Assembly (NCBI GenBank): GCA_032358255.1
Contig: JAULBX010012763.1
Span: forward strand, 1 to 64,000
Origin: Heterotrichella gracilis
Taxonomy: Eukaryota; Sar; Xanthophyceae; Tribonematales; Xanthonemataceae
DNA: 64,000 nucleotides
Reading direction: 5' to 3'
Made by a program: the position numbers and the translations under genes. Below the pieces are notes generated by a model. It was not told the DNA's origin. It saw only the letters and a list, made by a program, of their open reading frames with translations, and ran no database searches. How positions within the stretch are numbered: the first letter of the stretch is position 1; every line of letters starts with the position of its first letter. Below are positions 4,940 through 62,726 of this stretch, piece by piece.

Positions 4940-7900
4940 CTAGGTCTGCGGCTGCGTTGCGTCGCTCTCCTCTGCTCCCCCTTCCTTTCCCTTCCTCTCC
5001 GCATCCATTTCCGCCACCTTGTCCATCCCGAAAATGCCGATCAGGAAACCGCGCCAGTCAGGCTTGGACTTGCGGGACATCACGTGCTGCCGGTAGGACC
5101 TGTGTGGGAGGGTCGGATATTAGGGTTTAGGGCAGGGTTTAGGGTAATGAGCCAGTCAGGCTTGGACTTGCGGGTCATCACGTGCTGGCGGTAGGACTTG
5201 GGTGGGACGGCGTGGTCTTAGGGTTTAGAGCAGGGTTAGGGTGATGAGCCGGGCATGCATAGACAGCTGCGGGAACCCTGCGCATCAAATACTACATCCT
5301 GCAGCTGCTGAGACATAAATCCTAGGCTTGTTACCCGGCGCCTGAAACCCTTGCATAGGGCTATCCCCTCCTCTTCCGCCACACATCCGCCACACATCCA
5401 CCAGCATGCGACCCTGTGCAATGCAGCTATGGCTTACTGCTTGCTGAGCAAGCACCATGATTCTACCCTAGGGCTATCCTCCCCGCACCTATTTGCATCC
5501 TGTAGCTGAGGCCACACATCCATCAACACGCTGTAGGCGACACTCCTAAAGCCTAGTGAGGGTTTTCCTTGCACCTGAAACCCTGGCATGCCCCATATCC
5601 GCACCTGATTGCGTCCTGCAGCCGCGGCGACCCCATGCGCCACACATCCACCAGCATGTAGTAGGCAGTGTTGTCATACCCTAGGCGCTTCAGTGCAGCC
5701 CTGGCCTGACTGAGGTTCAGCTGGGCAAGCACATGCTCAACTGCCGGGTCGGTGGTGGGTGGGGGGAGGGCGGGGGCGGTAGGGGGCGGGGCCGGGGCCG
5801 GAGCGGGGATGGGGAGGGCGGTGGTGGCGGGTGGGTGGCTGGGGAAGAGGCCCAGGGGTGGCTGTGGGGTAGGGAGAAGGGGTGTGGGTTGGGGAATGTG
5901 TTGACTTACGTGTGTGTGCTGTGCTGGGTACAGTAGTGTTTACTGGCCTCTAGAGCGTGTCCTTGGTGGCGTGTGTGTGTTTATGCTGTTCATAATGCCA
6001 TGGGCATGTGTGTAGGGTAGACAAGGGGACGAGCATGGGTGAGGTATCATGTGTGGGTGGATGCGCCTGGCCTAAACCAAACCGTCTGTGAAAAAGATGC
6101 GATGTGCGCACCCCCATGTGTCCCATCAAATTTTGGCGATTAAGATTTTATGAACTTGGCAATCGAAATTCCACCCATTTGGCAAATTTCACTCCTGCCA
6201 CCCACCTGTCCCAACATGGCCCATCCTGGCGGCGGCGGCCTCTGCATCATCATCGCCAGGGGGTGGCTGGCTGGGGGGGGCAGCGCCGTGGTGGGGGGTG
6301 GGGGTGGCGGTGGTGCCTCCTCCTCCTCTCCTTCGTCCCCCGACCCTGATGCGCCCCCCTTGCGCCTGTGGTGGGGGGGAGTGTTGTTGAGGGAGTAGTA
6401 GGGATGTGATGGGTGGGAGCGGGCGGGGTGCATGGGTGTGGTGGGGGATAGGGCGACGGAAGCTGGTCACGAGTACTTGCCTTGGCACTCTGTACGGAAA
6501 TGAACCTTACGTCCACCTCTCCCCTCTTAACCCCACCCCACCCCACCCCACCGCACCCACCTCTTCCTCTTGGGCGGGTCGTACCCTATCTGCTCACACA
6601 ACTTCGTGTACTCCTCCCTCTCCTTGGCCGCAAGCTCAAGGTAGCGCTGCTTGGTGGCAAGGTCCGCTGCGTGCCAGGCCTGCGCAGCCAGCTTGGTGCC
6701 TGCGGGGGGTGGGGTGGTGATTTAGGGTTTTAGGGCGCAGGGTTCAGCGCTGCTTGGTGGCTGCGTGCCAGGCCTGCCCAGCCAGCTTGGTGCCTGTGGG
6801 GTAGAGGTGGCGATTTAGGGATTAGGGTCTTAGGGTTCAGCACTGCTTGGTGTCTTGGTGCCAAGGTCAGCGGCGTGCCAGGCCTGCGCAGCCAGCTTGG
6901 TGCCTGTGGGGTAGGGGTGGCGATTTAGGGTTTAAGGTTTAGGGTTCAGCGCTGCTTGGAATTCAAGCCTGCGGCGTGCCTGTGGGGGTTGGGGGGTGAC
7001 GGGGTGGGCAGCGCATAGGGACCCAAACACCCTAGCACTGCAAGGGGGTAGGGTTCCCAGAGGATCCTGAAACCCCCAAATCCAGCATCGCTAGGCAGCT
7101 AGGCCACGCAGCCTACCACCCAGCATCACCAAGCAGCTCGGCGACGCAGCCTACGACCCATAAACCTCCAAGCAGCACAGGGCCACAGCCTACATCCCCT
7201 CTACCCCCTGCCCTGCACCACCGCCCGCCTGCGCCACGCCCACACCCCTCCGCACCATCATTGAATTGCGTTTCTGGGTCCAGCGTTGCGCGGTGGTCCA
7301 TCGAAAACAGGATGTAGGCGGAGCGGGGGCGCCTCGGGGGCTCAAAGCCCTCCTGGCCGGGGAGGAGTGGGGGGCCTGAAGGGGGAGGAAAAAAGGTCAG
7401 TTGAGTTGGGGAGGGCAGCTATGATGCATGCGTGTGCCGTTGGAGGGAAGCATCCATTAGTTGGTCATCTGAACCCTAACCTTGAACCCTAAACACTATT
7501 TCCAGGCATGCAGCAGCGCAGCCAAGTGAAGAGTCAGACATGCGTGGTGACATGCAGATGCGCATTTTATGTGCGGGTGGGCCATGTTCATTTGATGGCA
7601 GATGCGTGTGCATGTCGCCGTGTGCACAATGCCGACTCCTAATCCATGCGTGGTGTGTGCCTGCCCGCGCGTATGTTTGGAGGGGGATTTGGATGAGGTG
7701 CCCATGCCAGGCCATGACGAAAGGCCCATACCGGCACATGCCCACCCCACCCACCACCCACACATAACACTGGGGTGGGTGGTGGGTTCCACCACCGCCA
7801 CCTCCACCACCGCCGCCGGCACCACCCTACCCACCTGCTGCCCGCTCCTCTTTTATTCGCGTGACCTCCGCCGCGCGCGCCGCTTTCTGCTCAATAAAGC

Positions 7901-21188: not shown

Positions 21189-23689
21189 ATGAGCAAGGGG
21201 AGTAAACCCACCACCAGGGCGGAGAGGAGGGCGCTGCAGGAACAACAGGTGGCGACCCAGGCCCCAAACCCTACACTAAACTCTAACCCCCGTGCAGCGC
21301 CGCGCCTCAAGCCCCCTTGCTGCCATGGGCCCCGCTGCATGCAACCCAACCCCAAACACCACAGCCCTAGAATAGAGCTCTAAAGTCTCCAAACCCTAAA
21401 TTGATGTCCTCCGCCCTGTGCAGCGCCGCGCCAAGTCCCTTGCCGCCATGGGCCCCTCCGCATGTGAGGTGTGGCTGGTGCGCCATGGCGAGACGGACTG
21501 GAACACAGCCCGGGTGATGCAGGGGCAGACAGGGGAGGAGCCTGGGCTGAATGAAAAGGGGAGGGCGCAGGGGGAGGCGGTGCGTGTGGGGGGAAGGGGC
21601 CGGGGTTGTCGCAATGGGGAAGGGGGGGCAGAGAGGGGAGGAACAAGCTGATAGGCCGCACCTACTCCCCCCCCTTGTCATGTCATGCTACCTTGCAGTG
21701 CCTTGCTCTCATGCAATTAAAGTAGGATAGGACTGGTCAGTTGCCTGACGCCAACCAGCCTATGGCACAGGCAGCTCCCAGGGAAGGTTTTTTTCCCCCA
21801 GGAGGCACATTGTGATTGCTGCGTGGCAGCCACGCATGCAAAATCTCGTTAACGTCCCCGTCCCCACCTCCTCTAACACATACACCCTCCCATCATGCAG
21901 CTCGCCCAGGCCCTGCAAGGGGAGCGCTTCAGCGGTATGTATTCCTCTGACCTGGGGAGGGCGCAGCAGACTGTGCGGCTGGTGGAGGGGGTGGTGGGGG
22001 GACAGGTGGGGGTCGGAGGGTTGGGGTGTGGGGGGGATGGGGGTGGGTGTGAGGGCGCAATGCACCCTCATGGACTGGCGGCTGGCAGTCCTTGGCAATC
22101 TACCCCCTTCATTTCCCAACACATGGCAACTGTAAAACCTCAATCCCCCACCCTCCCCCCACACCCCACCACTGCAATCAAGCACACCCTCACTTGCAGG
22201 CGATCCCCGACCCCGGCCTGCGGGAGCGCCACCTAGGGTTTCTCCAGGGTTTCACATTGGAACACAGCGCACAGCACCAACCAGAAGTACTGGCCGCGCT
22301 GTACTCCCAAGACCCTAGCACACCCCTGCCGGTAGGTCTTAAGGGTTTTAGGGTTTGGGATGCTGGCCGTACTCCATCCTAGCACACCGAGGCCAGTAGG
22401 TGTTTAGGGTTTCAGGGTTCAGGGTCCTGTGCTGTACGCCCAGTGCACTGGCCCACCCCTGCCGGTGGGATTCAGGGTTTTGAGGGGGAGGCTGCACTGT
22501 AACATCATTGATCATTTATGTCACTCTTCCACTTACGATTCCCACCTGGGTGGTTGCAGGGAGGGGGGGAGTCACTGGATGTGTTTTCACAGCGGGTGGT
22601 TTCGGCTGTCGCTGCAATTGCGGCTGCACACCCAGGTACAGTACTGACGGATTTTGGGTGTGTGTGTTTCTGTCCTGTCTTTCCCTTGCTGGCCAGTTGT
22701 GTTGGAGACACATTGTGTTACCAGCCTTGCTCCAAGTGCAGTGCATGGGGTGTACTCCTGCGTTGCTCAAACCTTAGGATTTCTGTGAGTAGAAAGTAGC
22801 AGTACCCAAAACCTTACCTCGTAAACCCTGGATGCTCACCATCCAGGATGACACTTCAATGCTGACCTATATGTACAGCTTGATGCACGACGACAACCCC
22901 ACTAAACGCTGGCCATCCTTCTTGATCACGTTTGGTCTGGTAGGGTTTTATGGTGTGCCCGCGGAGGGTTTTAGGGTTTTCCTTTGCATGCCTGCAGGTG
23001 GTAAAGTGCTTGTGGTGACTCATGGCGGGGTGCTGACGGCAGCCTACAGGTAGGGTTGGGAGAGGGTGGGAAACCCTAAAGCCTTCCATAGGTGACATGC
23101 GAGGCACTGGCCAGCGGTGCATGGAATCTATGGATTTGAAAAGTACATATTGTCATCTGCAGGGTGACATTATAAGTGCATTACATGATGAAGTCATCCC
23201 CTACCGAGGCTTTTTGTTCCTTGTCATTCGCAACAGTTACCTTCATCCTTTGGGACATGCTTTCTACCATGTCTTATGACCTGCCTTCTTTCGGTGAACC
23301 CTGTGTGTTCCACCTGGCATGACAACATTTCCTTTCTTTCCTGATTTGTCCCTCGCTGCGTGCGACAGATTATTCAGGGTCTGCTTCCCTGCCCATGTGC
23401 ATATACGCTATGGCAAGAACCACGAATGCTCGCGAGAGCTTACCCTATTTCAGGGTTTTCTCCCTCGCATTTAGCGACAGATCACCCTAACTGAGGGTTT
23501 TGTTCCCTCCCCACGTGCAGGCATGCTACCGGCAGCACCCCTGGCAAGAACCACAACTGTGCCATTAACAGGCTGCGGGTGGGGGGTGGTGGGGGGGGGA
23601 CGTGGGTGGTGGAGGGGTGGGGGGAGGTGGGGCACCTGCAAGGGGTGGGGGTTATGGAGGATGCATTTGGAGGGGGGGCGGGGGGATGA
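21189..23689 (+). CDS. Gene D: histidine phosphatase / phosphoglycerate-mutase-like enzyme
   Basis: Exons 21189-21248, 21424-21579, 21901-22005, 22200-22331, 22560-22635, 22998-23049 and 23521-23689 give 750 nt (249 aa), with phases closing. The catalytic motif LVRHGETDW puts the phospho-accepting His at residue 41. GLNEKGRAQ and YSSDLGRAQQT follow, then the PDPGLRERHLGFLQG loop and the second catalytic His at about 185 (VVTHGG). The end has NCAINRLRV and TWVVEGWGEVGHL, as in bacterial-type GpmB/CobC-like members. By family it moves or removes phosphate through a phospho-His intermediate; the substrate cannot be told. The size is normal for the superfamily. The short basic N-terminus (MSKGSKPTTRAERRAL) does not look like a secretion signal. 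Confidence 0.9.
21287..21345 (+). repeat. Echo of gene D exon 2 5' end
   Basis: The stretch GTGCAGCGCCGCGCC... at about 21291 copies the acceptor and first 45 bases of exon 2 (genuine 21418-21470), about 128 bp upstream of it. It includes a complete CAG acceptor, so it could act as a decoy splice site. Confidence 0.75.
22345..22475 (+). repeat. Two echoes of gene D exon 4 3' end
   Basis: The exon 4 end and donor (22288-22340) recur at about 22358-22398 and 22430-22475. The second keeps CCCACCCCTGCCGGTGGG, i.e. a possible donor. Each copy is followed by TTTAGGG-type sequence. Confidence 0.7.
23380..23436 (+). repeat. Echo of gene D exon 7 5' end
   Basis: Bases 23383-23435 (CTTCCCTGCCCATGTGCATA...GGCAAGAACCACGAATG) mirror the exon 7 acceptor and start (23503-23560), about 121 bp away. 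The AG of the acceptor is lost in the copy. Confidence 0.65.
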
Positions 23690-24825: not shown

Positions 24826-27800
24826 TTAGGTTGTCATGGGGCCGGCCACCGGCACGAGCACGTCTGGGAATGTCATCTGGCGAATCAACACATCCAGCAC
24901 CTGCAAAGGGGGGCACATTTGAATATGAGGGGGGGGGGAGGGGTGAAATGTCACGGGGAGGAGGTGTGGCTATATGGGGTCACATAAGACCCCATATACG
25001 GACTGTGAATGCAAGGATTTCCAATCATTATCAGGAGGACTTCGCAGTGCTGCGGATGTGACATATTGAAGTCCTCCTGTCATTATGCACATCCAACAGC
25101 TCAAAATGAAGGCAAACCATCGCATGTGCGCACCTGTGCTGCATTGTGTGCTGCGATGCCCAGGAACTGCGAGATTTTGTTGAACTCCGCATCCCCCCCT
25201 GCCAAGTCGCTGACCGACCTGATGATCATGCAAGGCTTCTGGTTCGTTGCACAAACTTGCATCACCGCTGGGGACTGCGGCACAAGGGGAGGGATGTTCG
25301 GGGGCCAAGGGGTGGGAACGTGTTGGGAGGAGGGTAGTACATGCACACCTGCACCACCGCTGAGGACTGAGGCACAAGGGGAGGAATGGTGTGTCTGAGA
25401 GGTGGGGATAGGAGTGGGTGTGGGTGTGGCAGGACTGCTAATGCAGCAGTGGAAGACCTTGTAGGTATTGGGCAACAGAGCTATCTGTGCCCATTATGTA
25501 GCCCTCCCATCCAGATCCTCCCACCCTCACCCATCACCACCTGCCACCCATCTCCATGACCACCACCTCCGCCTGCAGCTCCATGCACACCTGCTCCCTG
25601 TTATTAGGGTTTTAGGGTTTGCCACGTTTGTCCTCCACAAAGGTGGACGAGGCAAAACCACAGCCCCCACCCACCCATCAACCCCCCACCCCACCTGTCC
25701 ACCACCTCCGCCTTCAGCTCCTTGTACAGCTGCTCCCTGTAGGCCGCGTCGTCCACAAATGTGGATGAGGCCACTGCATAGCCCCCCCTCCCCCCACACA
25801 CCACCACACACACACACCATCATCCCACCCCACCCACCTCCATGTCCACCACCTCCGCCTTCAGCTCCTTGTACAGCTGCTCCCTGTAGGCTGCGTTGTC
25901 CACAAATGTGGATGAGGCCACTGCATAGCCCCCCGCCCTCAGCTCAGGGTCCTGCTCCAGCTCGTAGGTCATGTTGGTCATGGGGTCGGTCCACACACGG
26001 GACATGTTCACAAGGGGAACAACCTGGGGTGGGGGGAGGGGGTGGTATCACTCCATTGATGCTTCCATGAGCCAACTACCCAGCCACGCCCACGCGCACC
26101 CACACACCCAAACCCACACACGAGTCATGTGACGGGGTGCAACGACGGAACTGCCTGCCACGGCTCCTGGCGCGTCGTGCAGCCAAGACCAACTTCCCCA
26201 AACCCTACCTTAGGGTTCACCACAAGCCCTTCCACAGGGCCCCACCTCGCCACAACCTTAACCCAGCCCACCTAAACCGGCCACCTTGTCAGCCAGCTCC
26301 TGCAGCCATTCAGGCGCCTCGAACCCTACTCAAGGGTTTCTCTCAAATCCTACTCTATGTCCAAAAACCCAAAACCCTAGCGCCCCACCTTGTCAGCCAT
26401 GGCTGCAGCTCCTGCAGCCACTCGGGCACTTGAAAACTCTACCTAAGGATCCATCACCTCAAACACTACCCTAGGGTTCCCCCTGCCCCCATCCCCACCT
26501 TGTCAGCCAGCTCCTGCAGCCACTCTAGCACCTCGAACCCTACCCTAGGGTTCCACCTCAAACCCTACCTAAGGGTTCCATCTCCCACAAACCCAAAACC
26601 CTAGCCCCCCACCTTGTCAGCCAGCTCCTGCAGCCACTCAGGCACCTCGAACCAGAACTGCTGGGGGGGCGTGGCGGCAAACCCGTCCTCCGCATGGATC
26701 AGCACCTCTGTCTGCATGGGGATGGCGAAGTAGGGCGTGACTGCAAACCCTGCGTTGGCGGCTGCGGCCAGGGTGGAGGCGTTGGGGGTGTTGGCACACA
26801 CCGAGCAGCCTGCGGGTGGGGGGGAGTGGGGGGGTGGTGGGGGTGGAAGAGGGGGGAGGGGGGGGAGGGGAGAGGGAGGCAGGGCTTGAAGGTGGTGGGC
26901 ATGGGTTGGGGTAGTTTTGGTGTGGCGTGGGTTGCAATGGGATTTTTTTCTATTGATGCTGACTTGCACTGGACTGAGCATCAGAATCCCACATGGACTG
27001 GTCTTGCATCAGTGGGCGGTTGGGGTACTCAGTGTGAGGGCACTTGCGGCAGCAAGCATTGCGCCTCGTGCACATGGCTCACCAACATTAAGATTACACT
27101 CCTTAGTAGGTTGGACCAGAACCCAAAGTTACCATTTTGACCAAGGCCTAAAAGTACCCTACTGATTAACGCTCGCAAATGCATCATGTGGTTGAGGATT
27201 AGGCTTTGCAGCGCGGCCACCACATGCCCCATGTCAGGCCATCAATCCAAAACGTGCTAAAGCTCCATCACGCCCTAGGAAGATGATAAGCAGCCCACAA
27301 GCATCATTGCGGGAAGGCAAATGCTGAATTAACCCCTAATGCCCTCAGGAGTATGGGCATCCCCATGCCCACAGGAAATTCCACACACCCCTCCTTCCCT
27401 CCCCTCTCACCTGGCCGCATGAACGACATGTACCCCCCCTTGTCGTTCTTCACAAACTTATCTGGGAAGTCCACCGCGATGTCTGCAAAGTAGGAGGTCT
27501 CGCTGTCCCCCGCCATCATGGGGCGGATGAACTTCTGGTGCTGGGGGTGCGCCCAGCTGAAGGGGATGGTCACGTCGCCGATGAGGTTGTCGGGGTTCAC
27601 GCCACCGGCAATGCCTGGGGTATGGGACAGGGGATTTCAGAAGTTTTTCATTTTTATACTCTGGGGAATAACTTACATGAGGTTGTCGGGGTTCACGCCA
27701 CCGGCAATGCCTGGGGGATGGGATAGTACAGAAATTTCAGTTGTTTGTTTTGTTCTGTTTTACAGAATTTTCAGTTTGTAAAACAAACAGCTTTCTTTAC

Positions 27801-36455: not shown

Positions 36456-36510
36456 CCTCGCTATGTGTGCGAGAGACCCATCCACGCTGTGATTTGGCCT
36501 ACAGACGGTC

Positions 36511-36517
36511 TATATAG
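36511..36517 (-). promoter_or_regulatory. TATA box of gene F
   Basis: CTATATAG on the minus strand, 56 bp upstream of the chosen ATG (36455) but only 26 bp from the outer ATG (36485). This spacing favours the inner start. Confidence 0.55.
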
Positions 36518-41500: not shown

Positions 41501-44410
41501 CGGTGTCTGGCTCAAAGCCTTTCTTTGATTGTAGTTGTGGGGGTGTAGGGGGTGGGTTGCGGCTGGGATGGGGATTGAATCGGGCAAGGGGGGCGGGGGA
41601 GGAGGTGGGAGGCACTTTGATGGACCCCAGGAGTTGCTGTGTGAGACGCATCGGATCATGCGGGAGGATGGGTACAGGCTTTGGGGGGCTGCGGTGTTGC
41701 TTCTGGTCCAGACCCTAAACCTCAAGAGCGTGTGTGCCTTCATTCGAGACCTCACAACCTAAACCAAAGCCAATGCACCCCACACAAGTGGTGCGTGTCC
41801 CCACCCACCCACTCAACCCCCACCCCTGCAGGTGGTCGGCCGCAGCCCGAGGAGACTTGGATTGTGATGGAGTATTGCGACAGGGGGTCGCTACTAGACG
41901 CAATCAACGTGGGCAGGTTCCAGCAGCGCAGCCCGAACCCCAAGGCCCCCGACCTGGTGCGTGCGGGCAAAACCCTAACAAGAATACCCTACACTAAAGT
42001 TTAGGGAGGTCGTTTGCATCCATGGCATGGGCATTGCCCAAGGTTTAATTGCCAGCCGGTTCAAAACGTAGATGCTCTTCTGGAAAATCCTGCACCATGG
42101 CCATTACGCCCGTGCCCAACCCTACTCAAACCACATGCCTGACCCTACACAATGCCTGTGTACACACACCCTGCGCCCAAGCACACTAGACAGGCTTGAC
42201 TGGCTAATGCACAGGCCCTTTAGAACCCTCAAACCCATCGCCAAACTCTACGCCAACCCTACCATCCTGCGCTCGCTGCGTGACATCGCATGACCTACTG
42301 CCCTTTGAGGGAACGTTCTACCCAGGCGCTACACCTCAACCCCAACCCTAAACGCTAAGGTTTGCCCTCGCAGGAGGCCATCCTTCGCTCGCTGCTCGAC
42401 ATCGCTCAGGGCATGACGTACCTGCACTCGGAGGGGATCATACACTCGGACCTCAAGTGCCCAAACGTGCTGCTGCGCTCAACGCTGCAAAACCCTCGAG
42501 GTACGGTTTGGGGCGCCGTGTTTTTGAACGCTTTCTGTACCTGTTGCGGATGGTGAGGGGGGCTGTGCAACTGAAAATAACAGCCAGGTAGCGCTTCACA
42601 TGCATTAGTATGGGAGCTAACTACTGCTTCCCATGTACCCTTTAGGGTTTTCCTGCAAGCTGGCCGACTTTGGCCTTGCACGTGTGCTTGAGCCCGAGCA
42701 GACCACCATCCACACGCGCACCTTTGGCACCATGAGCCACCAGCCGCCGGAGATGCTGACCAAGAACAAGCTGAGCAAGGCGGTGGACGTGTACGCCTTT
42801 GGCATACTCAGTACGTGGCTGGAAAACCCTAAACCCTAGACACATTATTTCGGATTGAGTTGAGCGAGACACCTAAACCCTAGAGTCTGAACCCTTATCG
42901 AGCAAACTGCTGAGAAGGACAATGGGCGTGTGTGCTTTTTGACATCTTGAGTGCGCGGCTTGAAATCATAAACCCTAGACACCCAACCATAAGCCGTGAA
43001 CAAGCCAAGCAGATCTAAATTGCATACACCTTGTCACTAATGACAAGGTGTATAACAACCTCAGCCAGGGCCAATCATACATGGGAATCAAGGAGAACCT
43101 GCGTTAGGGTGTCGAGCTTTGTGTAGGGTTTTGCACGTTCTCCCTCATCCCCCTCTCCCTCTGCACCCCACACGCAGCCTTCTGACCCCCCAAACCCCCT
43201 CTCCTTCACAGTGTGGGAGGTGTACACTGGTGTACAGCAACCACAGCCAGGGCCTGTCCAGACAGGGAACACCCTCAACCCTGCGATACCAAGACCCTAA
43301 ACCCTAACCCCCTCCCCCCGTGCAGTGTGGGAGGTGTACACTGGCGACAAGGTGTACAGCAACCTCAGTCAGGGCCAGCTGTATATGGGCGTCACGCAGC
43401 AAAACCTGCGGCCCCCAATCCCCACCGGCTGTCCCCAGTTCTATGTGGAGATGATGACTGCGTGCTGGGATAGCGACCCTACCAGGCGGTGAGTGGTCGG
43501 CTGGGATCATGTGGGAATGGGGTGCGATCATGTGGATTAATGGCTGCTTGCTGGGATAGCAACACTACCAGGCGGTGAGTGACCGTGTGGGATCGTGTGG
43601 GATCATGTGTGGTGCGAACCTGATAAAAGCCAGTTGGGGACCAAGTGAGTTGAGTGGGGTTGTTTGGAACTGGCTGAAGGGATTTACATTCTGGCTGAAG
43701 GGATTTACGCTGGTGGCCGGGCAAGGTGATGCCCAGTAATGCGTACTGTGCACCGTAACCATCGATCTACGCATCAACCCCAGAGATCAGCTGCATGCCA
43801 TCCAAGTAACCCACCCCTCTCCACCCCCCAGGCCCCCCACCGGCACCATCCTCCAGCAGCTGCGGCGCGCACTGAGCCAGATGCGGCAGGCTGCGGGGGG
43901 GGCCGCACGCGCCGCCCGCCAGCGCTCCTCCTCCATGCCCCCCACCCCCTCCGCCATCGGCAGCGGCAGGCGGCTGGTTGCGGCTGAGCAGCCCACAAAC
44001 CCCGAGTCACAATGTGAGTTGCGCTAGGGTCTGGGGGTAGGGTTCAGACAACAGGCAGCAGCCCATGCCCTCCTGGCTTCACCCAGTCAGGGTACTTTTG
44101 AAGGCACGTACGCTGTCACCCAAACCTTAGTAGCAACTATAGATCACCAATTTCCTCCCCTGCATGGGCTGATATTCCTCCTCCCCTGTACCCGCTCATG
44201 CCTCTCCCACTCCTGCCCAGCACCTACCACCGCTGATGCCCCACCCCTCCTTTGCATGCAGTCGAGGACTCAATGGGACCCGGGTCGGATTTGCCGGGGA
44301 CGCATGAGCTGCATTCGGTCCCCGGGTCGGATGTGGCGGGGATGCCCAGGCTGGGCTCGGTCCCCGAACCAGATGTGGTGGACGGCCATGAGTGGCGCTC
44401 GGGGCAATGA
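38557..44410 (+). CDS. Gene G: membrane-anchored RAF/CTR1-like protein kinase (5' end missing)
   Basis: Exons 38557-38686, 39501-39697, 39919-39990, 40687-40820, 41126-41207, 41832-41956, 42374-42500, 42646-42810, 43326-43488, 43832-44013 and 44262-44410 join with consistent phases. The first exon found enters in phase 1, so at least one upstream exon is missing. It encodes a membrane helix, TILTALLGCLTAVLLGTLVL, followed by a basic stop-transfer patch (RLPRRQPR). The kinase domain has the Gly loop GTGSYGRVYRG, VAVK lysine, hinge WIVMEYCDRGSLL, catalytic loop HSDLKCPNVLL, DFGLA and MSHQPPEML. This is the tyrosine-kinase-like (RAF/CTR1/MAP3K) group. Oddities are HSD in place of HRD and PPE in place of APE, but the catalytic Asp, Lys and Asn remain, so it is probably active. 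The Ser/Pro/Gly-rich tail has GSVPEPD-type repeats. A receptor-like kinase is likely. Confidence 0.88.
38738..38875 (+). repeat. Two echoes of gene G transmembrane exon 3' end
   Basis: GCGCTGGTGCTGCCCAGGCT and the rest of the exon end with its donor (38649-38692) recur nearly exactly at 38742-38785 and 38833-38874, spacing about 92 bp. Both keep a potential GT donor. ACCCTAAACCC-like sequence lies between. Confidence 0.92.
39269..39297 (+). repeat. GGGGT pentamer run
   Basis: Five GGGGT units in a row lie in a gene G intron. They could form a G-quadruplex in DNA or in the transcript. Confidence 0.85.
40030..40085 (+). repeat. Echo of gene G glycine-loop exon 3' end
   Basis: AAGCTGCTAGGGACTGGGTC and the bases after it, up to a GCAGGTGC donor-like site, copy the exon end 39948-39996, about 84 bp downstream. 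Weaker fragments may continue to about 40140. Confidence 0.8.
40874..40985 (+). repeat. Two echoes of gene G exon 40687-40820 3' end
   Basis: The exon end (CGCTCAGCCACCCTAACGTG...CTTCAAG) recurs at 40886-40922 and 40946-40982. The first is almost perfect and keeps GTAAACCC as a possible donor; the second has more changes. CCCTAA repeats fill the spaces. Confidence 0.92.
41270..41335 (+). repeat. Echo of gene G exon 41126-41207 3' end
   Basis: CACTCGAGGAACAGCCGGTG and the following G-rich bases resemble exon bases 41158-41212, with several substitutions and a 10-base insertion. Confidence 0.6.
42255..42300 (+). repeat. Echo of gene G exon 42374-42500 5' end
   Basis: CCATCCTGCGCTCGCTGCGT with GACATCGCATGACCTAC copies the start of the exon (42378-42420), about 116 bp upstream. 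Confidence 0.75.
42915..42975 (+). repeat. Weak echo of gene G exon 42646-42810 3' end
   Basis: A diverged copy of the exon end and donor (TTTTTGACATCTTGAGTGCG against CTTTGGCATACTCAGTACG), followed by the same CCCTAGAC tail. Identity is low. Confidence 0.5.
43024..43265 (+). repeat. Echoes of gene G exon 43326-43488 5' end, with a snap-back hairpin
   Basis: Bases 43041-43105 copy exon bases 43345-43412 (GACAAGGTGTA.AGCAACCTCA). Bases 43209-43262 copy 43324-43375. The first copy is preceded by an inverted piece of itself: ATACACCTTGTCA - CTAA - TGACAAGGTGTAT forms a perfect 13-bp stem at 43024-43053. Confidence 0.85.
43538..43582 (+). repeat. Echo of gene G exon 43326-43488 3' end
   Basis: GCTTGCTGGGATAGCAACAC and the following TACCAGGCGGTGAGTG at 43544-43580 copy the exon end and its donor (43461-43495), 83 bp downstream. 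The duplicate GTGAGT donor is intact. Confidence 0.9.
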
Positions 44411-46822: not shown

Positions 46823-49800
46823 ATGCTTGTAACCAGTAGCACACCGACCATGCTACCCGCCAGCTTGGGTGCTGGCAGCAGTGTGCGTATCTGCCCACAG
46901 CCGTTCACCTCCCCAGCCACTACACACGTCCGCAACCAAAAGGCTCGACTGCGAGCAAATCCCGTCAGTGCTGCAGCCCAATCAGCGTCGTACGAGGTGG
47001 CGAAAGACACGCAGACCTCGAACTACGCGGCATGGGCCGCCAGCAAGGGTATCACCTCTCCCAAGCTAGCGCAGGCGGCCTTTGCGGGGCTTCGGGGCAT
47101 GGTGGCGGTGGAGGTGGGTGGGGTACAGCCAGGCTCATGCGGATGTTGCCTGTCACCGGGTTCCGTACGCCACCTCACAGCCTCAAATCGGCGGATGTGC
47201 ATGTTAGTTCGCGTCTTGTCACCTTGTAGTGGGGCGTTGCGTGGTGTATGCATATTACATTATGCATGCATATCCAACGGTGGCGATGCATGCATGCATC
47301 TGTTGTGTTTCACCTAGGCACAGATACTACCGTATGTCGGCCTGTTGAGGACGTTAGGATGGGACAGCAAAGCAAACCAGCACACACAACCCCCCTTAAA
47401 CCCCTATCCTAACGATGACCCTAATAAAACCCTACTTTGGGGCAATATAACCATCACCATGGTGTGCCATAGGCTGGATCAGTTGATTGCAGTGCCTGGA
47501 CAGAGCTGGTTAATGCAAGGTATATAGGACTGCCTACAACGTAGCTCTATCGCTGGAGGTTTGTGGCTGACTACCTGTGTGGCATGCGTCTCACACCATA
47601 CACATCGTATGAAAAACCCTAACCCTGCACAGTAAGAAGCCCTACTGTAGGAAATAGAATCAACACCCCTTGCCACGTGTTTCAGGATATTCCAGCTGCC
47701 GAGGCGTTCGTCACCCTTCCCCGGGACGCAGCCCTGGTGGTCCTCCCCAAGCAAAAATGCCCCCTGGGGGACCAAATAGACCCCAAATTCTGGGGCAGCA
47801 CCCCCTGGTTCGCCAAGCTGGCCATCTTTTTATTGGCCGAGCGGGCCAAGGGGAGCGTATCAAATTACTGGGGATACATCCAGAATCTGCCCAAGGAGCA
47901 TTATGAGATGCCCTTCCACTGGAGTGAGGAGGAGCTGGCGGAGCTGCAATACCCTTACATCCTGCAGGAGGTGGGGGGAAACCCTAGCATAGGGTCTTAG
48001 GGTTTGGGATTTAGGTTTAGCAACGCATCAGGATGACCATGTCGGGGCTGTAGGATCCCATACGCTTTGCAGGAGGGGAGGGAAAACCCTGGCGCAGGGT
48101 TTTTAAGTCCCGTTGGTTGCCCCCTCGTTTCGAATCGCGCCTGGCCTTTTAGCTAATCTCTCTAACGACCACCCTGCCACTTTAGCTGCATTGCTGGCAT
48201 GGGTGTAACTAACCACAGGGAACTCACATGTACTGTTTTGGCACCCCCCTGCTGAGGCGGTGTTTCCTCCCCTGCCCTCCCGACAGGTAGCGCAACAGAA
48301 GGTGGCGTGGAGCAAGTTCCACAGCGACCTCCAGGCCAACTCCAAGGGTCTAGGGCTTTCGTACGAGGACGTGGTGTGGGCGCTGGAGAATGTGCGCAGT
48401 AGGGCATTCAGCGGACCCTATGCAGGTGGGGAGGGATTAAATTTGGGGACTAGGGTTTTTGCGTGAGAATGTGGTGTCAATAACTGGTCCAGGCCTTCGC
48501 TTGAATACAAATTGCATGGCCCCGGCAGGGTTATTACACAAAGGTATCCTGTGCACCTCAAATGAACCCTATGTGAACCCCATGCGAATCCCCATTTGAT
48601 CCAGGTGGCAGCCAGGGGGATCGACTAGCGGCTAGGGTTGGGAGGGTTTGGGAGGGTTTCTCTTGCGCAGCACCATACGAAACCCTATGTGAAACCCTAT
48701 GTGAGCCCCTTGTAAACCCATGTGATCCAGGTGGCAGCCTGCGGGAGCGCCTCAAGGTGGCGGGGCTGGTGGGGCTGGTGGGGGGGGCATACGTGGCAAC
48801 CTCGGGCATACCGCTGGAACAGGTGGGGGGGGAAGGGGGGAGGGTGGTGGTCGGCTGGTTGGATGTGGATGCACAGGTGTAGGATGTAGGGTTTTGGAAG
48901 CACACAGTGAAGGGTTTTGGGTGCACAGTGTGTAGGGTTTTGGGTGCACCGGGTGCAGGGTTTTGGAGGCACGGGTGTAGGATGTATCTACTTCTCATAT
49001 AAGAGCCGGCAGTAATGCGTCTTTGGGTTCGTGCAGGCATTGAACGGCGCCATTGCGGCGGTTCTGTTCAACATCATGTATGACGTGCTGCTGTCTCAGA
49101 AGTTAAAGTGGTACGCGCTGCTGCCCGTGGTGGACTCCTGCAACCACAGCAGCAGGGCGCAGGTGCGGGAGGGCGGAAACCCTAAACCCTACTAAGAACC
49201 CTAATGACAGTTCTGATTAAATTTCACTTGCTTCCCGTGGTGGACTCATGCAACTACTCTAGCAGGGCGCAGGTGTGGGAGGGCGCAGATCCTGAACCCT
49301 ACTCCAAACCCTAATGACAGTTCTCATGGAAACCGTAATTGCTGCCAGCGTGGTTTTGTGCAACTACAGCAGCAAAGGGCAGGTGCGGTAGCCCTGAACC
49401 CTGCTAAGAACCCTAATAATACCTGATGACGTCCCCCAATGGAAATCCCGATGGAAAGTACGGTGGGCTCGGGCAACAAAAGCAGCAGGGCCCAGGTGGG
49501 TGGGTAGTGGGGGGAGAGGGCAGACCCTTGAAGCCATGATGTGAATCCTTACCCGTATCATAAGGTCCGTATGGGACCCTGCGTGTGTACAAACAGCCTC
49601 CATCCGCCAGGGGGGGGGAAGGGGGATAACCCGCTCCCGCACGGCTTTGCCCAAAGCTCGCCCCTCCCATATGAGGAGCTGCTTAACCCCTCCCCCACCG
49701 TGCACAGCGATGTCTCCTACCAGTACTTCAAGGACCAATTCACCCTGGAGCTGGCTACTGCCTCACCCAAGGGCAAGCAAGTGTTTATCCATTGTGACCA

Positions 49801-51300
49801 AAACAAATCATCACCCAATGTCATCGGCCTTGCTAATCTGATCCCTCCATCGTCCCACGGCACCCTCCCTTGCCTGACGAGGACCCCCTCCTCCCCCGCC
49901 TGCGCAGAGCGACGTGTCCTACCAGTACTTCAAGGACCAATTCACCCTGGCCACACCCTCCCCCAAGGGCAAGCAGGTGTTCATCAGCTACGGGGCCCAG
50001 AGCAACGACCATCCAATCCTATGCAACAGACCCCACCAATCTGATTGGCACCCTCCCATTCCTGTCAAGAAACCGCCCCCCACCCCCCTCCCCCGCAGAG
50101 CGATGTGTCCTACCAATACTTCAAGGACCGATTCACTCTAGAATTGGCCACACCCTCCCCCAAGGGCAAGCAAGTGTTCATCAGCTATGGGACACAAGGC
50201 AACGACCAGCTGCTGCAGTACTATGGGTTCGTTGAGGGGAGCAACCCGCATGATGTGTATGTCATGACCAGCTTTGTGGAGCGGCTGGGGCAGCGGCTGG
50301 GGTTGGGGTTGGGGGAGGTGGAGGCGCGGGTGGGGGGGCAGGAGGGGCATCTCAAGGCGGCGCAGAAGGTGGGGGATGTGGGGTGGATTGCGTTGCGGGG
50401 GTTTGGTTGAGAGCATGTATGTTTGCCTGTCTGTGTACTTTGCAAGGTGTGGCTACTTTTTGCGCATGGCTTGTCAGCAACGATGGGTAACATTGTCCTG
50501 AGTTGCAGAGCCTGGTTTGACCCATGGTAGCCTGTCCCCCTCCTCCAAACCCTACAGCATGTAGTCCCAACCCTGTGCGCAGGCTCTGGTCACTCTCAGG
50601 GGCTTCTCCAACCATCCCATCCACCACAAACCCTACATCAAAAGCCTTACAAGCAGCAACCCCACATAATAAGCCCTAAACCCTAAACCCTAAACCCTAC
50701 ATGCAGGCCATCGTCACCGCTAAGGGTTTTTCCGAGGAGGCCCGCCAGGCCGCGCGCGCCGCCATTGGCCCTACCTGCACCGATGCGCAGCTGAGCAGCG
50801 TGCTGATTGGGTGCCTGGAGGTCGAGCTGCTGGGCATGGGAACCACCCTGCAGCATGACAAGAGCCTGCTGGCCAAGGGGGGGATGCTGACTGAGAGGAG
50901 GCAGCTGGCGGTGCAGGTGGGTGACAGGGGGGGAGCCTGAACCCTACGCGGAGAGCCCTAAACAGTCAGTAAACCCTAAGGGGGCTGGAGGTTGAGCTGC
51001 TGGCTATGGGTAGCACCTTACACTATGACAAGGGCCTGATGGCCAAGGGAGCACTGCTGACTGAGAGGGGGCAGCTGGCGGTGCACATGGGTGACAAAGG
51101 TGGAAGCTACACCCTAGGCCCCAAACCCTACGTTTATTTCATAAAATGAACTCAATGTCCATATGTCCATATGCTCTTCATGAGTACCCTGACTACCCCC
51201 CTCCTTGTGCCTGCAGTTCCGGGTGCTGAAGAAGGGTCTGTTGCTGGATGCGCTCAAGGCACTCAACCAGGCAGCCAAGAAGATGGGAGCGACACCCTAG
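46823..51300 (+). CDS. Gene H: SET-domain lysine methyltransferase, Rubisco-LSMT type
   Basis: Exons 46823-47113, 47686-47970, 48287-48425, 48731-48822, 49037-49162, 50099-50368, 50707-50916 and 51217-51300 give 1497 nt (498 aa), with phases closing. An in-frame ATG also lies at 46766. The first 50 residues are Ser/Thr/Ala/Arg-rich and nearly free of acids, like a plastid transit peptide. SET motifs are GLRGMVAVEDIPAAEAFVTL, NYWGYIQNLPKEHYEMPFHW, the VVDSCNHSS cofactor/lysine pocket (the usual D.xNH) and VFISYGTQGNDQLLQYYGF. The C-terminal half (EARQAARAAIG, LLTERRQLAVQ-like, LLLDALKAL) fits the Rubis-subs-bind domain of Rubisco large-subunit methyltransferase. By family it transfers methyl from S-adenosylmethionine to a lysine of a stromal protein; the exact target (Rubisco, aldolase or other) is not known. 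Introns are full of exon copies. Confidence 0.9.
48048..48635 (+). repeat. Weak echoes of gene H exon 2 3' end and exon 4 5' end
   Basis: CATACGCTTTGCAGGAGG at 48060-48077 resembles the exon 2 end (47953-47973). CCAGGTGGCAGCCAGGGGGA at 48602-48621 resembles the exon 4 acceptor and start (48727-48746). Both are short. Confidence 0.55.
49220..49500 (+). repeat. Three decaying echoes of gene H exon 5 3' end
   Basis: The NHS-motif exon end (49120-49165) recurs at about 49229-49276, 49347-49386 and 49452-49498, spacing about 105-115 bp. The closest copy is nearly intact, the last is barely recognisable. All keep GCAGGTG-type donors. Confidence 0.88.
49705..50015 (+). repeat. Two near-complete copies of gene H exon 6 5' half
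   Basis: Acceptor plus about 100 bases of exon 6 (genuine from 50099) recur from about 49709 and from 49909, spaced about 190-200 bp. Both read SDVSYQYFKDQFTLELA-like protein with intact AG acceptors. Neither has a clear donor, so they may be decoy acceptors or, less likely, alternative first halves of the exon. Confidence 0.92.
50980..51095 (+). repeat. Echo of gene H exon 7 3' end
   Basis: About 108 bases of the exon 7 end (50812-50922) recur at 50986-51093, including GAGGCAGCTGGCGGTGCA-like bases. The duplicate reads largely open but its donor is changed from CAGGTGG to CACATGG. Confidence 0.92.
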
Positions 51301-58800: not shown

Positions 58801-61800
58801 CACCTGGGGCAAGTGAGGGACATGCTGGTGCTGGTGAGGCAATCACCAGCACCAACCAATGGGTAAAAGCTCCCACCACCCCCATCCCTACCACACCGCC
58901 ACCCACCACCTTACACACCCCATGCACCCCCACCCCCACCCCCACCCCACCCACAGCCGCCCCACACCTGCACATTGGCAATCACCGCCAGCCCCCCCTC
59001 GCTCCCCGCCCTGGCCAGCACCAGCGGCGCAAGCTGGGGCAGCGCCAGTAGGCCCCCGAAGCAGCCTCCCACCACCGCGTGCATCACCACAACCACCCCC
59101 TCGCCCTGCAGCAGCCCCGCCAGCAGCTGCTGAGTGCACTGGCCCTCGGGGTCGTCACAATCCACTGCCAAGGTGGCGGCTCGCACCAGGGAGGAGAGCT
59201 CGGGCGGGCCCAACAGCGCGCGTACAACCTACAGGGTTTGGGGGTCAGATTTAGGGTGCAGCAGAACGCACACCATCCCAGGGGTAAACGGTTTAGGGTT
59301 CAAGGCCCAGCAGCTGCTGCGTGCACTGGCCCTCCGGGTCGTCACAGTTCACTTCCAGGGTGGCGGCCCGCACCAGGGAGGAGAGTTCAGGCGGGCCCCA
59401 CAGCGCGCGCACAACCTATAAGGTTTGGGGTTCAGGTACTGTGGTTACAAGCTGCGCCAGGAAAGAGCTGCTTGGTACCGCATGTGCAAGACTGACTGCT
59501 AGAGGTACAAGAAATGTCAGGACAGGGCTGGTGGCGCAAGCGTGTGCAAGCTGATTGCTGATCCGGCTGTGTTGCTGGAATGCATGAATTATTAAAGGGG
59601 GCGTAGAGTTTAGGGCCAAGCAGGACGCGCGCTACCTTGATGATGGGGCTAGGACACTCTGGCCGAGGGTTGAGTGCAGACCCTGGCCTGGGGCTTTGTG
59701 CACACCCTTGCCTAGGGTTTTGCACGCACCTGGAACGTGTCGTGGTCCTCACAGAGCGTTGTGAGCAGCTGCGCCACCCTGTGCTGCTGGCCCTGGGTGT
59801 GCAGGAGGCCAACCTGCGGGAGAGGGCAGGGTTATGTGCATAGTTTTTGGGTAAGGTTGTGTGTAGGGTGTGTGTAGGGTTTTAGGTAGGGTTCTGCGTA
59901 AGGTGCGAATTGCTGCTGGCCGACACATGCCCCACACCTCCTCACATGTGCAACATAGGCACCAAAATCACGCCATTACATCCAGATCACAGCTCAAGAA
60001 ACAACCCACGACAACAGGCAGACCCGCCGCCCCCAGTACCCACCAGCGCCGCCACCCCCCCTTCCTCCACCAGGAGCTTGGATGCACTGGCCACCTCCCC
60101 ACTGCCAAGCATCTCATCAATGATGTCTAGAGCTGCAGGGGGGACGATTACGGCGTGAGAGGATGGCGGCAGATGGTAGGCCCAGGGGGGCAAGGGGAAA
60201 GAAGAATAAGTAATTCCCCGGGGCATGACAATAACTGCGACAGAGTCGATGCGGACGGGAAGGAGGGATATGTATGGAGGGGCGAGGTATCAATTAATAA
60301 AGGTGTACTGTTGAGGTGTACCCCAGAGTATATCCCACACTGGTACATGTGATGCCAAGCCTGCACTGTGATCCTGACTGTGACCTACAATTTGTGTTGC
60401 AGCATCCCTGAATCATCCCCGATACACCCTGCCACATGGTGGTGTGGGTAGCTCTCAAACCCTAATTACAACCCTACCACATCTCCAGCGCACCCCAACC
60501 ACACCCCTACCACACACCATGGGCCAAACCCTCCTTGCACCCCCAACACACAACCCCCGGCGCACCTATCAACAGCGACACAGCGAGTTTCTTTGCCATC
60601 AACCTCCCCAACCTCCGCCACCACCTCTCAACCCCCACCTCCCCCCCCACACCACCACCGCCCGCGCACCTATCGACAGCGACAGTGGGTCCCTGCACTT
60701 TGCCATCAGCTTGACCAGCACCCCCATCTGCTGGATGAGCAGGCGGATGACATCGCGGGAGCGCCTGGCCAGGGGGCACAGCAGCGACATGAGCTCGCGG
60801 GCCCAGGCGCTCAGGCCCGGCTCGGGCATGTGGTCCAGCACGCCGCGCAGCAGGCGCACCTGGGGGGGGGGAGGGTTGTGAAGCGGGGTAATTATAGGGA
60901 GTGGGTGGGCGGGTGTTGGTTGGGGTTTGGGGGAGCGGGGTGTGTGTGTGCAAGAATAGTGGTCGGGATTTAGGCAAAGGAAACCACAATAGCGACATCC
61001 CAACTTGCTCAGGCCGGGCTCTGGCATGTGTTCAAGAAAGTCACGCAGCAGGCGCAAAAATACCCACCATGACCACCACGTTGAGGCCCTCTACCAGTGT
61101 CATCCTATGTCCCCACTCATCCACCCATCCGCCCACACCCTCCCCAACGGTTTCCGCCCCATTACACCCACCCCCTTTTAGAACTGACCACCTCACCCTA
61201 CCCCACACCCAGCCGCCCACACCCTCCCCAAGGGTTTCCGCACCATTGCATCAAACCCCCCCGAGCTGACCACCTGGCTGGTGGCCGCCCCGCTGGTGTC
61301 GCTCCTGACCAGCGCGTGCAGGGCCCGCACAACCTCCAGGGGCCCCTCGTCGTGGGGCTGGTACTTGAGCAGCTGGCACAGGGAGGGGACGGCGCCGGCG
61401 GCGATGGCGGCGTGCCTGTGGGGGGTTGTAAGTGTGTGGTGTGCAGGGGGGTTGGGGGGGGAGTGCGTGAGTAAACAATGAACCTTTGTAGCTAGGTTAG
61501 GTTTCTTTCAATCTGCCACCGCAGCGCCATACAGCCATTGTGGGGGCTTGGCCTGCTGGAGCAGCACCAGATACCCTATCGAGGGTACTTGCCTGCCGGC
61601 GCAGGATGCGCACCCTATTAGCGTGTTCCTTGCCGGAGCTGAAACCGAAAACCCTGGCAGGGTTTTGACTGCCAGACCCGCACCACCCCGCCGCGCACAT
61701 GTTCCTCGGGGTGTGCCTGGCCAGTGTAATCATCCCCATGGTGGCTGATAGTGACACCCTGTGTAGGGTTTCCGCTTCCCAGCGCAGGACCACGCACCCT

Positions 61801-62726
61801 ATTGTAGGGTTTACCCTTGCCAGCCTGCACCACAAACCTCTACGTAGGGCTTTTCATCACCCCGCCACCCACCTGTTCATGGGGTTGTGCCTGGCCAGCG
61901 TTGTCATGGCCATGGTTGCTGACAGTGACAGTGGCGTGAGGTCGCCATGGCGGGCCGAGGCCTGGTCAATCAGCTTGACCAGCATGGCGAAGCCATCCGC
62001 GTTCCGGAACTCGATCTGCACTGCTGAGAAAGACCAGCCCTGCCAGTTCTTGCTCAGCCCCTGCAGCGCCTGGAGCGCTGTCATCTGGCGGGCTTCATTC
62101 CTGGACTGCAGGGGGGGAGTGGTGGGGTGAAGGGATGTTGGTGTGGCGAGTGGGGGTGGAGTGAGGTGAGAGTTGGGGTGGCATGCGAGAGGGAGTGTGT
62201 GTGTTGGGTTGGTGTGGGAAGGGTGCTGGCATGGGGAGTGGGTTGTGTGGGAGGGAGAGGAAAAGAGGAGGTGTGTAAGGTGTTGGTGAGAGGGAGGGGG
62301 TGCGCGTTGAAGGTCACTGAAAGTGAAGCCCTCATGGTTTCCAAACCCCCTGTGATCTACTCCCCAACAGGGCTTCCCTGTGCGGAATGTTGCAGGAACT
62401 ACAGAGGCTCGTGAGGTCTGGGTCACCCGCTTCTGTCAGCGGACACCCTTCTCCATAGGGCCTCATCTTTCTTTAGGGCCGGCTTGAACACAACAGTTGC
62501 CTTTCACAGCCCTGCTCCTTTCACCCAAAGCTGCCAACAGGAGTGCACAGTGTGGCCTCCAAAACGGAGTCCCAGAAGCAATAGTGTTCTTCATTGTAAG
62601 AATACTATTGCTTATTCCTTGGCTTACCTGGAGGTCAGTGAGCAAGGTCCCCAGCAGCACACTCACTCCCTGCTTCAGGAGGGCCTGCTGGGGCCTGTCC
62701 TTCTTGACAGTGGTTTGGGTGGGCAT
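55829..62726 (-). CDS. Gene J: armadillo-repeat BTB/BACK protein (ARIA/ABAP1-like)
   Basis: Exons (minus): 62628-62726, 61873-62105, 61244-61415, 60670-60859, 60044-60132, 59730-59813, 58968-59228, 58471-58639, 57783-58205, 57357-57528, 57069-57132, 56660-56815, 56178-56359 and 55829-56105 give 2571 nt (856 aa), with phases closing. Residues 1-430 are helical ARM-type repeats, e.g. RQMTALQALQGLSKNW, AIAAGAVPSLCQLLKY, VVSSGGFDAMVRLLRG and KLLVEEGGVAAL. An acidic, disordered insert follows (about 470-555). Then comes a BTB-like segment (EHTFLVAGREMVLPCSLAEQ) and a BACK-like helical part (VLDVWAVAAHLKMHALQDHC). The order ARM then BTB matches Arabidopsis ARIA/ABAP1, which act as nuclear partners of transcription and replication factors and may recruit CUL3; that role here is inferred. 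The last exon could hide an intron of length divisible by three. Confidence 0.85.
59285..59430 (-). repeat. Echo of gene J exon 7 part
   Basis: About 115 bases of exon 7 (59115-59232), with its acceptor, recur at 59309-59424 with roughly ten changes. The copied acceptor is intact (AACCTATAAGG against AACCTACAGGG is the only change near it). This is one of the longest echoes in the window. Confidence 0.92.
60550..60610 (-). repeat. Echo of gene J exon 4 3' end
   Basis: GGCGCACCTATCAACAGCGA and about 30 following bases copy the exon 4 end and donor (60664-60715), 109 bp away. Confidence 0.8.
61000..61065 (-). repeat. Echo of gene J exon 4 5' end
   Basis: GCTCAGGCCGGGCTCTGGCA and the bases to GCAGCAGGCGC at 61056 copy the exon 4 start (60805-60859), about 196 bp upstream on the coding strand. 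The acceptor is lost. So exon 4 is echoed on both sides. Confidence 0.85.
61145..61200 (-). repeat. Echo of gene J exon 3 3' end
   Basis: CGGTTTCCGCCCCATTACAC ... GAACTGACCACCT resembles the exon 3 end with its donor (61232-61275), 86 bp away. Identity is moderate. Confidence 0.6.
61685..61770 (-). repeat. Echo of gene J exon 2 3' end
   Basis: GGTGTGCCTGGCCAGTGTAA and flanking bases to about 61760 copy the exon 2 end and donor (61860-61936), 176 bp away, with about a dozen changes. Confidence 0.82.
62577..62612. repeat. 36-bp hairpin beside a 5' splice site
   Basis: AGCAATAGTGTTCTT - CATTGT - AAGAATACTATTGCT, 14 of 15 arm positions paired. It starts 15 bases inside intron 1 of gene J, so the transcript can form a stem-loop next to the donor. 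It may be a tiny fold-back element; no clear target duplication is seen. Confidence 0.75.

Follow-up and report, generated by a model that had tools for sequence, protein, structure and literature searches.

Introduction

Tandem duplication is listed among the routes by which introns are gained (PMC3443670). In the potato RdRp gene, a tandem duplication that crossed an intron-exon boundary and carried the splice signals with it made a new intron, and frequent within-gene duplications are cited in the same paper (PMC4974935). Small tandem duplications are also formed when CST-guided Pol-alpha-primase fills in breaks with 43–50 nt 3' overhangs (PMC8355091). Telomeric repeats, in turn, can be inserted at breaks, and the flank was reported to be duplicated at 6 of the 130 rodent loci and 4 of the 25 primate loci (PMC2246262). 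In the green alga Haematococcus lacustris, short interspersed repeats occur in tandem and AACCCT is found at scaffold ends (PMC7617258, section 3.5); the accessible part of a second Haematococcus paper (PMC10400597) contains nothing on exon borders. Here, we describe a 64-kb window of the Heterotrichella gracilis genome (positions 1 to 64,000 of contig JAULBX010012763.1), to which all results refer, and in which introns contain copies of the adjoining exon end, termed echoes below. The copies are direct, nearby and neutrally diverging, and they nearly always include the splice border. They follow one another with or without an unshared intervening stretch, which often resembles the telomere-like heptamer CCCTAAA (TTTAGGG on the other strand).

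Copies of exon ends within their own introns

The set of nine modelled genes comprises 65 introns, which total 25,626 bp, and 13,889 bp of exon. A significant copy of the exon-end 45-mer was found in the border's own intron at 25 of 130 borders (p < 0.002), where approximately 0.3 would be expected from a null of 7,188 comparisons against introns of other genes. A first-pass annotation of this DNA had placed such copies on both sides of exons, and the significant borders indeed comprise 15 donors and 10 acceptors. The reverse-strand control of the same test gave 0 of 130 significant borders, and mid-exon windows gave 4 of 166, all four within exons that have a long border echo. Self-BLAST at 40 bits or more found 41 direct and no inverted pairs within 1,500 bp, and no pair at all in three shuffles; at 30 bits or more there were 69 direct pairs and one inverted pair. 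Because self-BLAST was blind to known short tandem repeats at offsets below approximately 50 bp, an ungapped scan over offsets of 20–600 was added, which returned 96 pairs against none in four Markov resamples. The presence of exon-edge copies in their own introns is confirmed.

The unit length (10–90% range) was 85–191 bp at 27 borders, close to the 85–200 bp spacing of the annotation. Across 28 usable arrays, the duplicated segment measured 42–176 bp and its exonic part 15–110 bp, and the copy lay in direct orientation approximately 65–205 bp from its source. One to six copies had been claimed. The lower part of this range was found, with one to three strong copies per border, and the highest count was five, in the array at donor 35114 of gene F at a lower cut-off. 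A weak array of 25 bp at donor 5605 of gene B is outside the 28-array and codon analyses and inside the 27-array filler set described below. At the remaining 103 borders, 24 had p < 0.1 against approximately 10 expected and 7 on the reverse strand; this weak excess makes it likely that more, older echoes are present.

The annotation had attributed the pattern to eight genes including gene C. It was found in seven (B, D, E, F, G, H and J). Gene C was not significant (best p 0.0028), and its 31-bp pair at 17166/17493, encoding MQRKLKEQLE and MQRTLQYQLE, is probably a normal protein repeat, since both copies are coding and lie within the Myb-CC LHEQLE region. Gene I showed no echo in the exon-end 45-mer test.

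Preference for exon edges

The explanation first offered for the echoes was that short tandem duplications arise everywhere, that those inside exons are purged and that those spanning a border survive. Duplication loci were therefore classified by position, using a spacing of at least 60 bp, the corrected gene models and a best locus value that mixes ungapped scores and BLAST bits. At a score of at least 45, there were 25 border loci, two with an exon part only, one intron-only and none in gene A or in intergenic DNA. At a score of at least 36, the numbers were 29, 4, 2, 1 and 2, respectively, the 29 border loci including the gene C protein repeat and weak loci at 33159, 47963 and 48866, none of which reaches 45. 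No classified locus in the window sits entirely within a single exon, in keeping with the purging of exon-internal duplications. The other half of the explanation fares badly: intron-only duplications would be equally harmless, yet 25 border loci are accompanied by one intron-only locus and no intergenic one.

A uniform process of tandem duplication throughout the genome, of which border-spanning or intronic products survive, is for us an unlikely source of the echoes. It agrees with the lack of loci wholly within one exon and with the position of the border inside the duplicated segment, which fits a uniform distribution (KS p 0.84). However, uniform placement of the same units predicts 42% border loci among the border and intron-only classes, whereas 25 of 26 were observed at a score of at least 45 and 29 of 31 at 36 or more. 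The corresponding p values are 7e-9, 2.6e-5 and 0.005 if border copies are taken to be one-, two- and four-fold as detectable as intron-only ones. A spike-in experiment using the measured substitution and indel rates recovered 78% of intron-only and 90% of border copies at the observed mean age, and the detectability ratio was 1.03, 1.16, 1.51 and 3.05 at 0.5, 1, 1.5 and 2 times that age. The imbalance was already there before the models were corrected (26 border against 2 intron-only, p 2.6e-8). With 25 border loci against one intron-only locus at similar spike-in recovery, some process therefore favours exon edges, as seen in one window with models that were partly hand-corrected after the duplications had been noticed.

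A tighter arrangement, with copies centred on the splice site and a fixed exon length, was considered and rejected (dispersion test p 0.16, KS p 0.84). The exon part measured 30–60 bp in 21 of 28 arrays (p 6e-4, for a range picked after looking).

The sole intron-only locus at a score of at least 45 is a 47-bp minisatellite at 10596-10726, which comprises 2.8 units that are 96% alike, lies in a gene B intron and contains no exon sequence. Repeats with units below 60 bp occur in introns and outside genes alike and are therefore a class distinct from the border echoes. Intronic tandem repeats with units of 23–46 bp were seen at 7082-7160, 40225-40309 and 48885-48981, the latter two with telomere-like words. 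A 37-bp tandem repeat (44700-44801; 2.8 units, 95%) lies downstream of the last modelled exon of the kinase gene. A 48-bp repeat of 2.7 units at 2069-2199 lies in an open minus-strand frame near the ATPase_2-like open reading frame of gene A and reads ALIGIGMLSMDC repeatedly.

Divergence of the echoes

For 26 of the 28 borders (donor 38686 of gene G and acceptor 25279 of gene E were left out), the best-matching echo was compared with its exon by codon position, with frames that we assigned from the open frames. The differences amounted to 36/428, 36/432 and 69/430 at the first, second and third positions (8.4, 8.3 and 16.0%), and the intron part of the same alignments, outside the splice consensus, differed at 14.7% of 225 bp. 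Divergence at positions 1 and 2 is thus approximately half of that at position 3 and in the intron parts, as would be expected if the echo is free to drift and the exon accepts only silent changes: silent sites would change in both exon and echo, and positions 1 and 2 in the echo alone. The comparison places the duplications on a common time scale and identifies the exon-joined copy as the functional one. The echoes look like neutral, non-functional junk, which supports this part of the first-pass explanation. The exonic part of the copies differs by approximately 11% on average. Divergence of this size, together with the codon-position pattern, is not artefact-like, and we give an assembly or sequencing artefact next to no credence.

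Selection could in principle keep the echoes as decoy or backup splice-site modules or as alternative exon ends. The splice dinucleotides are intact in 34 of 40 aligned echoes, or in 34 of 42 if two gene D copies are included, which were set aside because the border used for their alignment was off by 2 bp; nine further copies stop short of the splice site. Long echoes at acceptor 50099 and donor 50916 of gene H, acceptor 59228 of gene J and donor 25834 of gene E have mostly conservative reading frames, and judging from these frames, some long echoes may be used as alternative exon ends. Nevertheless, approximately 77% retention of the dinucleotides would be expected anyway at approximately 88% identity (our own arithmetic), the codon positions diverge as if the echo alone drifts, and 17 of 19 indels in the codon alignments are not multiples of three. 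Selection on the echoes is improbable as a general explanation, and selection on their splice sites in particular is disfavoured by the dinucleotide retention and the codon-position pattern.

Telomere-like sequence beside the copies

The annotation had also associated the copies with telomere-like heptamers. Of the 27 echo borders, 17 have a 7-mer of the heptamer register within 60 bp, as do 26 of the other 103 borders (odds ratio 5.0, p 4e-4), so that the association holds. The density of these 7-mers is 20.4 per kb in introns, against 0.94 in exons and 4.6 outside the modelled genes, and the intronic value is approximately 17-fold over a first-order Markov expectation of 1.2 per kb. Duplication spans contain 44.3 per kb and the remaining intron sequence 14.1. 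The 7-mers within a run are not independent of one another, which affects these densities and the sense counts given below. Dimers of the heptamer (21) were found along with dimers of a hexamer (4) and an octamer (2). At the exon-side junction, 24 of 51 echo copies have a 7-mer no more than 25 bp away, compared with 17.7% of random windows in the same introns.

The part of a unit that does not align beyond the outer copy was taken as filler. Unaligned filler of at least 10 bp is present in 23 of 27 arrays and of at least 25 bp in 15; in one array, 46 bp of filler adjoin a copy that is 96% identical. The fillers contain 62 motif 7-mers, and outer flanks of equal length contain 21, donor 5605 of gene B contributing 2 to the filler count and 7 to the flank count. 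TTTAGGG/CCCTAAA tracts between copies are therefore frequent, as annotated, but not universal (10 of 23 fillers). The motif is linked to the duplications, and it is neither necessary nor always confined to the junctions.

A further explanation would be that motifs already present in introns near exon edges (splicing enhancers, branch points or fork-stalling sites) lead to slippage that duplicates the adjacent border. The similarity of CCCTAAA to a branch-point core points in this direction, as do the full tandems whose unit includes the motif (acceptor 5099 of gene B, donors 26613 of gene E and 35114 of gene F) and the first 60 bp of non-echo introns of at least 240 bp, which contains the motif in 9 of 29 cases against 3.9 expected from interior windows. 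The last 60 bp of the same introns is at background (4 of 29 against 3.9), 77 of the 103 non-echo borders have no motif within 60 bp, and several arrays have no motif at all. Slippage would also be expected to yield intron-only duplications. We consider a pre-existing motif to be a rather unlikely cause.

The gene-sense ratio of CCCTAAA to TTTAGGG is 206:32 inside the duplication spans and 166:119 outside. Such a sense bias would be accounted for by RNA-templated patching, in which border-spanning fragments of pre-mRNA, shielded by splicing factors, serve as templates for a telomerase- or Penelope-like reverse transcriptase that copies them back next to the exon, and the same process would account for border-only copying. 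However, the copies are direct and close to their source, like the products of DNA events in cis, and the border has no fixed place in the duplicated segment. RNA patching is, in our opinion, very improbable.

A palindromic sequence, CCCTAGGG, was found at ten sites (4733, 5466, 9250, 26469, 26543, 34529, 34541, 45791, 55305 and 56638) where approximately 1.5 would be expected by rough arithmetic. The sites resemble head-to-head telomere motifs, and two of them lie within the array at donor 26613 of gene E.

Arrays in the individual genes

In gene B (minus strand), the array at acceptor 5099 (5053..5264) is a full tandem of a 98-bp unit with CCCTAAA, and that at acceptor 6699 (6643..6959) has two strong echoes, a partial one recognized by eye and a gaaccctaaa-type filler after the exon head. 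In gene D (plus strand), one echo is found at the acceptor-like border 21424 of the first modelled exon (21264..21464), which was treated as a border although the upstream exon is absent from the model, and two echoes with TTTAGGG-type filler are found at donor 22331 (22298..22486).

The arrays of gene E (minus strand) begin with a single echo at acceptor 25279 (25252..25388), which seemed intron-only before the exon was re-modelled. They continue with donor 25834 (25531..25934), where one of the echoes has approximately 100 exonic bp, and donor 26613 (26196..26653), with three echoes and AACCCTAGGGTT-type filler. At acceptor 27614 (27581..27726), the one echo has 96% identity and an A/T-rich filler without the telomere motif, and the A/T-rich gene E intron at 27660-27930, as seen by eye, repeats words of the 'ctgaaaattc' type and has C-rich neighbours. 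Three echoes with a unit of approximately 120 bp follow at acceptor 28101 (28070..28535) and one at donor 28814 (28713..28854). Gene F (minus strand) has one short echo with 17 exonic bp at donor 33229 (33143..33245), one echo at acceptor 33380 (33346..33482), and three strong and two weaker echoes at donor 35114 (34657..35169), where CCCTAAA tracts follow every copy.

In gene G (plus strand), two echoes at donor 38686 (38652..38885) are separated by CCCTAAA filler, which is absent past the last copy. Donor 39990 (39952..40081) has one echo with TTAGGG-type filler, donor 40820 (40775..41004) two with CCCTAAA and donor 41207 (41153..41333) one with filler that lacks the telomere motif. Two echoes are found at acceptor 43326 (43042..43410), and the single echo at donor 43488 (43443..43602) is a near-full tandem without the motif. 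Gene H (plus strand) has one echo with mixed telomere-like filler at acceptor 48731 (48565..48752) and three at donor 49162 (49119..49498), again with CCCTAAA between the copies and none past the last. At acceptor 50099 (49687..50208), it has two long echoes whose filler lacks the telomere motif, and at donor 50916 (50815..51119) one long echo. In gene J (minus strand), one long echo with CCCTAAA filler is found at acceptor 59228 (59120..59435) and one short echo with 15 exonic bp at donor 60670 (60540..60684). The exon-head echo at acceptor 60859 (60809..61056) begins at the border and lacks the AG, the GT of donor 61244 is GG in its one echo (61122..61259), and donor 61873 (61681..61930) has one echo.

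Window and gene models

The 64-kb window has a G+C content of 56%. Nine of its ten genes were modelled with our own Viterbi procedure followed by hand curation, gene A being left out; the splice-site weights were fixed and chosen from general knowledge, and the modelled introns are of the GT-AG type. Exon 12182-12465 of gene B was cut back to 12229 ahead of testing, and the models at acceptor 25279 of gene E and donor 22331 of gene D were corrected once the duplications had been noticed. Pfam matches with an E value of 0.001 or better were obtained for eight of the nine genes, and gene H, the ninth, matched SETD3/Rubisco LSMT in the PDB. The products are an MFS transporter, a kinase, a SETD3/Rubisco-LSMT-like protein, a Myb-CC factor, an amine oxidase, an armadillo-repeat protein, an HMG protein, a phosphorylase-superfamily protein and a histidine phosphatase. 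In the gene H intron that has echoes from both sides, the exon join is backed by protein homology. No Rfam family or tRNA was found in the window. Viral contigs scanned for a protein related to that of gene F gave four pattern matches, none of which was confirmed, and a scan of viral contigs for a donor-plus-motif pattern found nothing.

Proposed mechanism

The explanation that we prefer, to which we give an even chance of being correct, is that the echoes are non-functional local duplications left by DNA break repair near exon edges. The break would be staggered, leaving complementary 3' overhangs tens of nt long, and one or both of its cuts would fall within the exon or close to it. Synthesis of the CST/Pol-alpha-primase type would then fill in the overhangs, sometimes after the addition of telomeric repeats, and rejoining would give the order segment, (filler), segment. 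Events inside an exon would break the frame and be purged, while events that span a border would be spliced out with the intron and be harmless, leaving the intron longer by one unit; later unequal exchange could then multiply the units. The targeting of exon edges might, as a guess, come from breaks linked to exons or to transcription and splicing. Plain tandem duplication does not suffice, given the unaligned filler in 23 of 27 arrays. That one telomere-processing machinery would yield both the duplication and the filler is our own synthesis.

Several observations weigh against this explanation. Staggered breaks are expected in introns too, and the missing intron-only products are unexplained. 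The contrast between filler and flank is weak when counted by array (a 7-mer is present in 10 of 23 fillers and 7 of 23 outer flanks), and 13 of 23 fillers have no exact telomere 7-mer. In 4 of 23 arrays (donor 22331 of gene D, acceptor 33380 of gene F, donor 38686 of gene G and donor 61873 of gene J), the similarity between filler and outer flank reaches p < 0.05, and to judge from this resemblance the two may be diverged copies of one shared sequence. At acceptor 5099 of gene B and donors 26613 of gene E, 35114 of gene F and 43488 of gene G, the copies share almost the entire unit, like those of a plain tandem. With a 7-mer no more than 25 bp away in 21 of 51 echo copies, the intron side has the motif nearly as often as the exon-side junction, and telomere tracts often end several bases before the exon junction; a clean telomerase scar is therefore not demonstrated. 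Finally, the whole case comes from one 64-kb window.

A more far-reaching version would have breaks tied to transcription or splicing handled by telomerase and CST/Pol-alpha, which would set a copy of the splice border, with telomeric filler, next to the original; introns throughout the genome would then lengthen outward from their ends and acquire decoy splice sites. We put this forward tentatively and think it doubtful.

Most of what is concluded about how introns lengthen and where small tandem duplications arise comes from rare, isolated examples. In this window, approximately one border in five has a neutrally diverging duplication with a built-in clock, in which a frozen exon is set against its echo, and the mutation spectrum of the duplication process can be read directly from the exon-echo pairs. 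The results suggest that introns grow through a local error of DNA repair with a preference for exon edges. If the border preference is genome-wide, it would link exon edges, breakage and telomere-type end processing.

Comparison with known systems

The ingredients of the pattern have precedents, and a search of titles and the beginnings of abstracts, with most subscription literature outside it, returned none that describes pervasive exon-border echoes with telomeric filler or, as far as that search can tell, the present density. To our knowledge, the within-gene duplication study cited in the potato paper does not report telomeric filler or border specificity. The arrays are also distinct from tandem duplicated (mutually exclusive) exons, as one exon end with 15–110 exonic bp is copied in the 28 arrays.

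Introners, like the echoes, change intron content on a large scale in algae and other eukaryotes (PMC9860276). According to the accessible part of that paper, they are repeated elements that make new introns, whereas each echo copies its own neighbour. In the 7,188 comparisons, limited to echoes, exon ends matched the introns of other genes at background level (maximum 36), and 20 of the 25 own-intron matches score 45–81. Inverted pairs of at least 40 bits within 1,500 bp were not found, in a search that did not extend to element termini. The introner-like analogue proposed in the first-pass annotation is accordingly not upheld. The composite repeats of Haematococcus lacustris share with the echoes that they are short tandem repeats, and differ in that exon borders are not mentioned in the text available (PMC7617258).

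Interstitial telomeric sequences provide a likeness in the telomere repeats at break junctions, which are sometimes accompanied by a flank duplication (PMC2246262), and such repeats were found at the junction in part of the present arrays only. Those loci are mammalian, duplication is a minority outcome among them, and the sections of the paper that were available mention no tie to exon borders. The CST/Pol-alpha duplications (PMC8355091) are likewise small direct duplications of tens of bp made by telomere end-processing machinery. The duplicated segment of 42–176 bp is of the same order, while the break type and the enzymes are invisible in sequence. That system concerns experimental mammalian breaks, and telomeric filler and a preference for exon edges are not mentioned in what is accessible of its description.

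A parallel at the gene level is intron gain by tandem genomic duplication (the Rogers model), of which the potato RdRp gene is an example (PMC4974935). Both involve tandem duplication inside a gene and across a border, and direct repeats within one gene were found here as well. In the present arrays, the duplicate does not supply the splice sites of a new intron; the echoes lie inside existing introns, each with its own splice-site copy. As far as the potato case is described in the accessible text, one locus gave rise to a new intron, whereas in the present window existing introns have lengthened at 28 borders, commonly with telomere-like filler.

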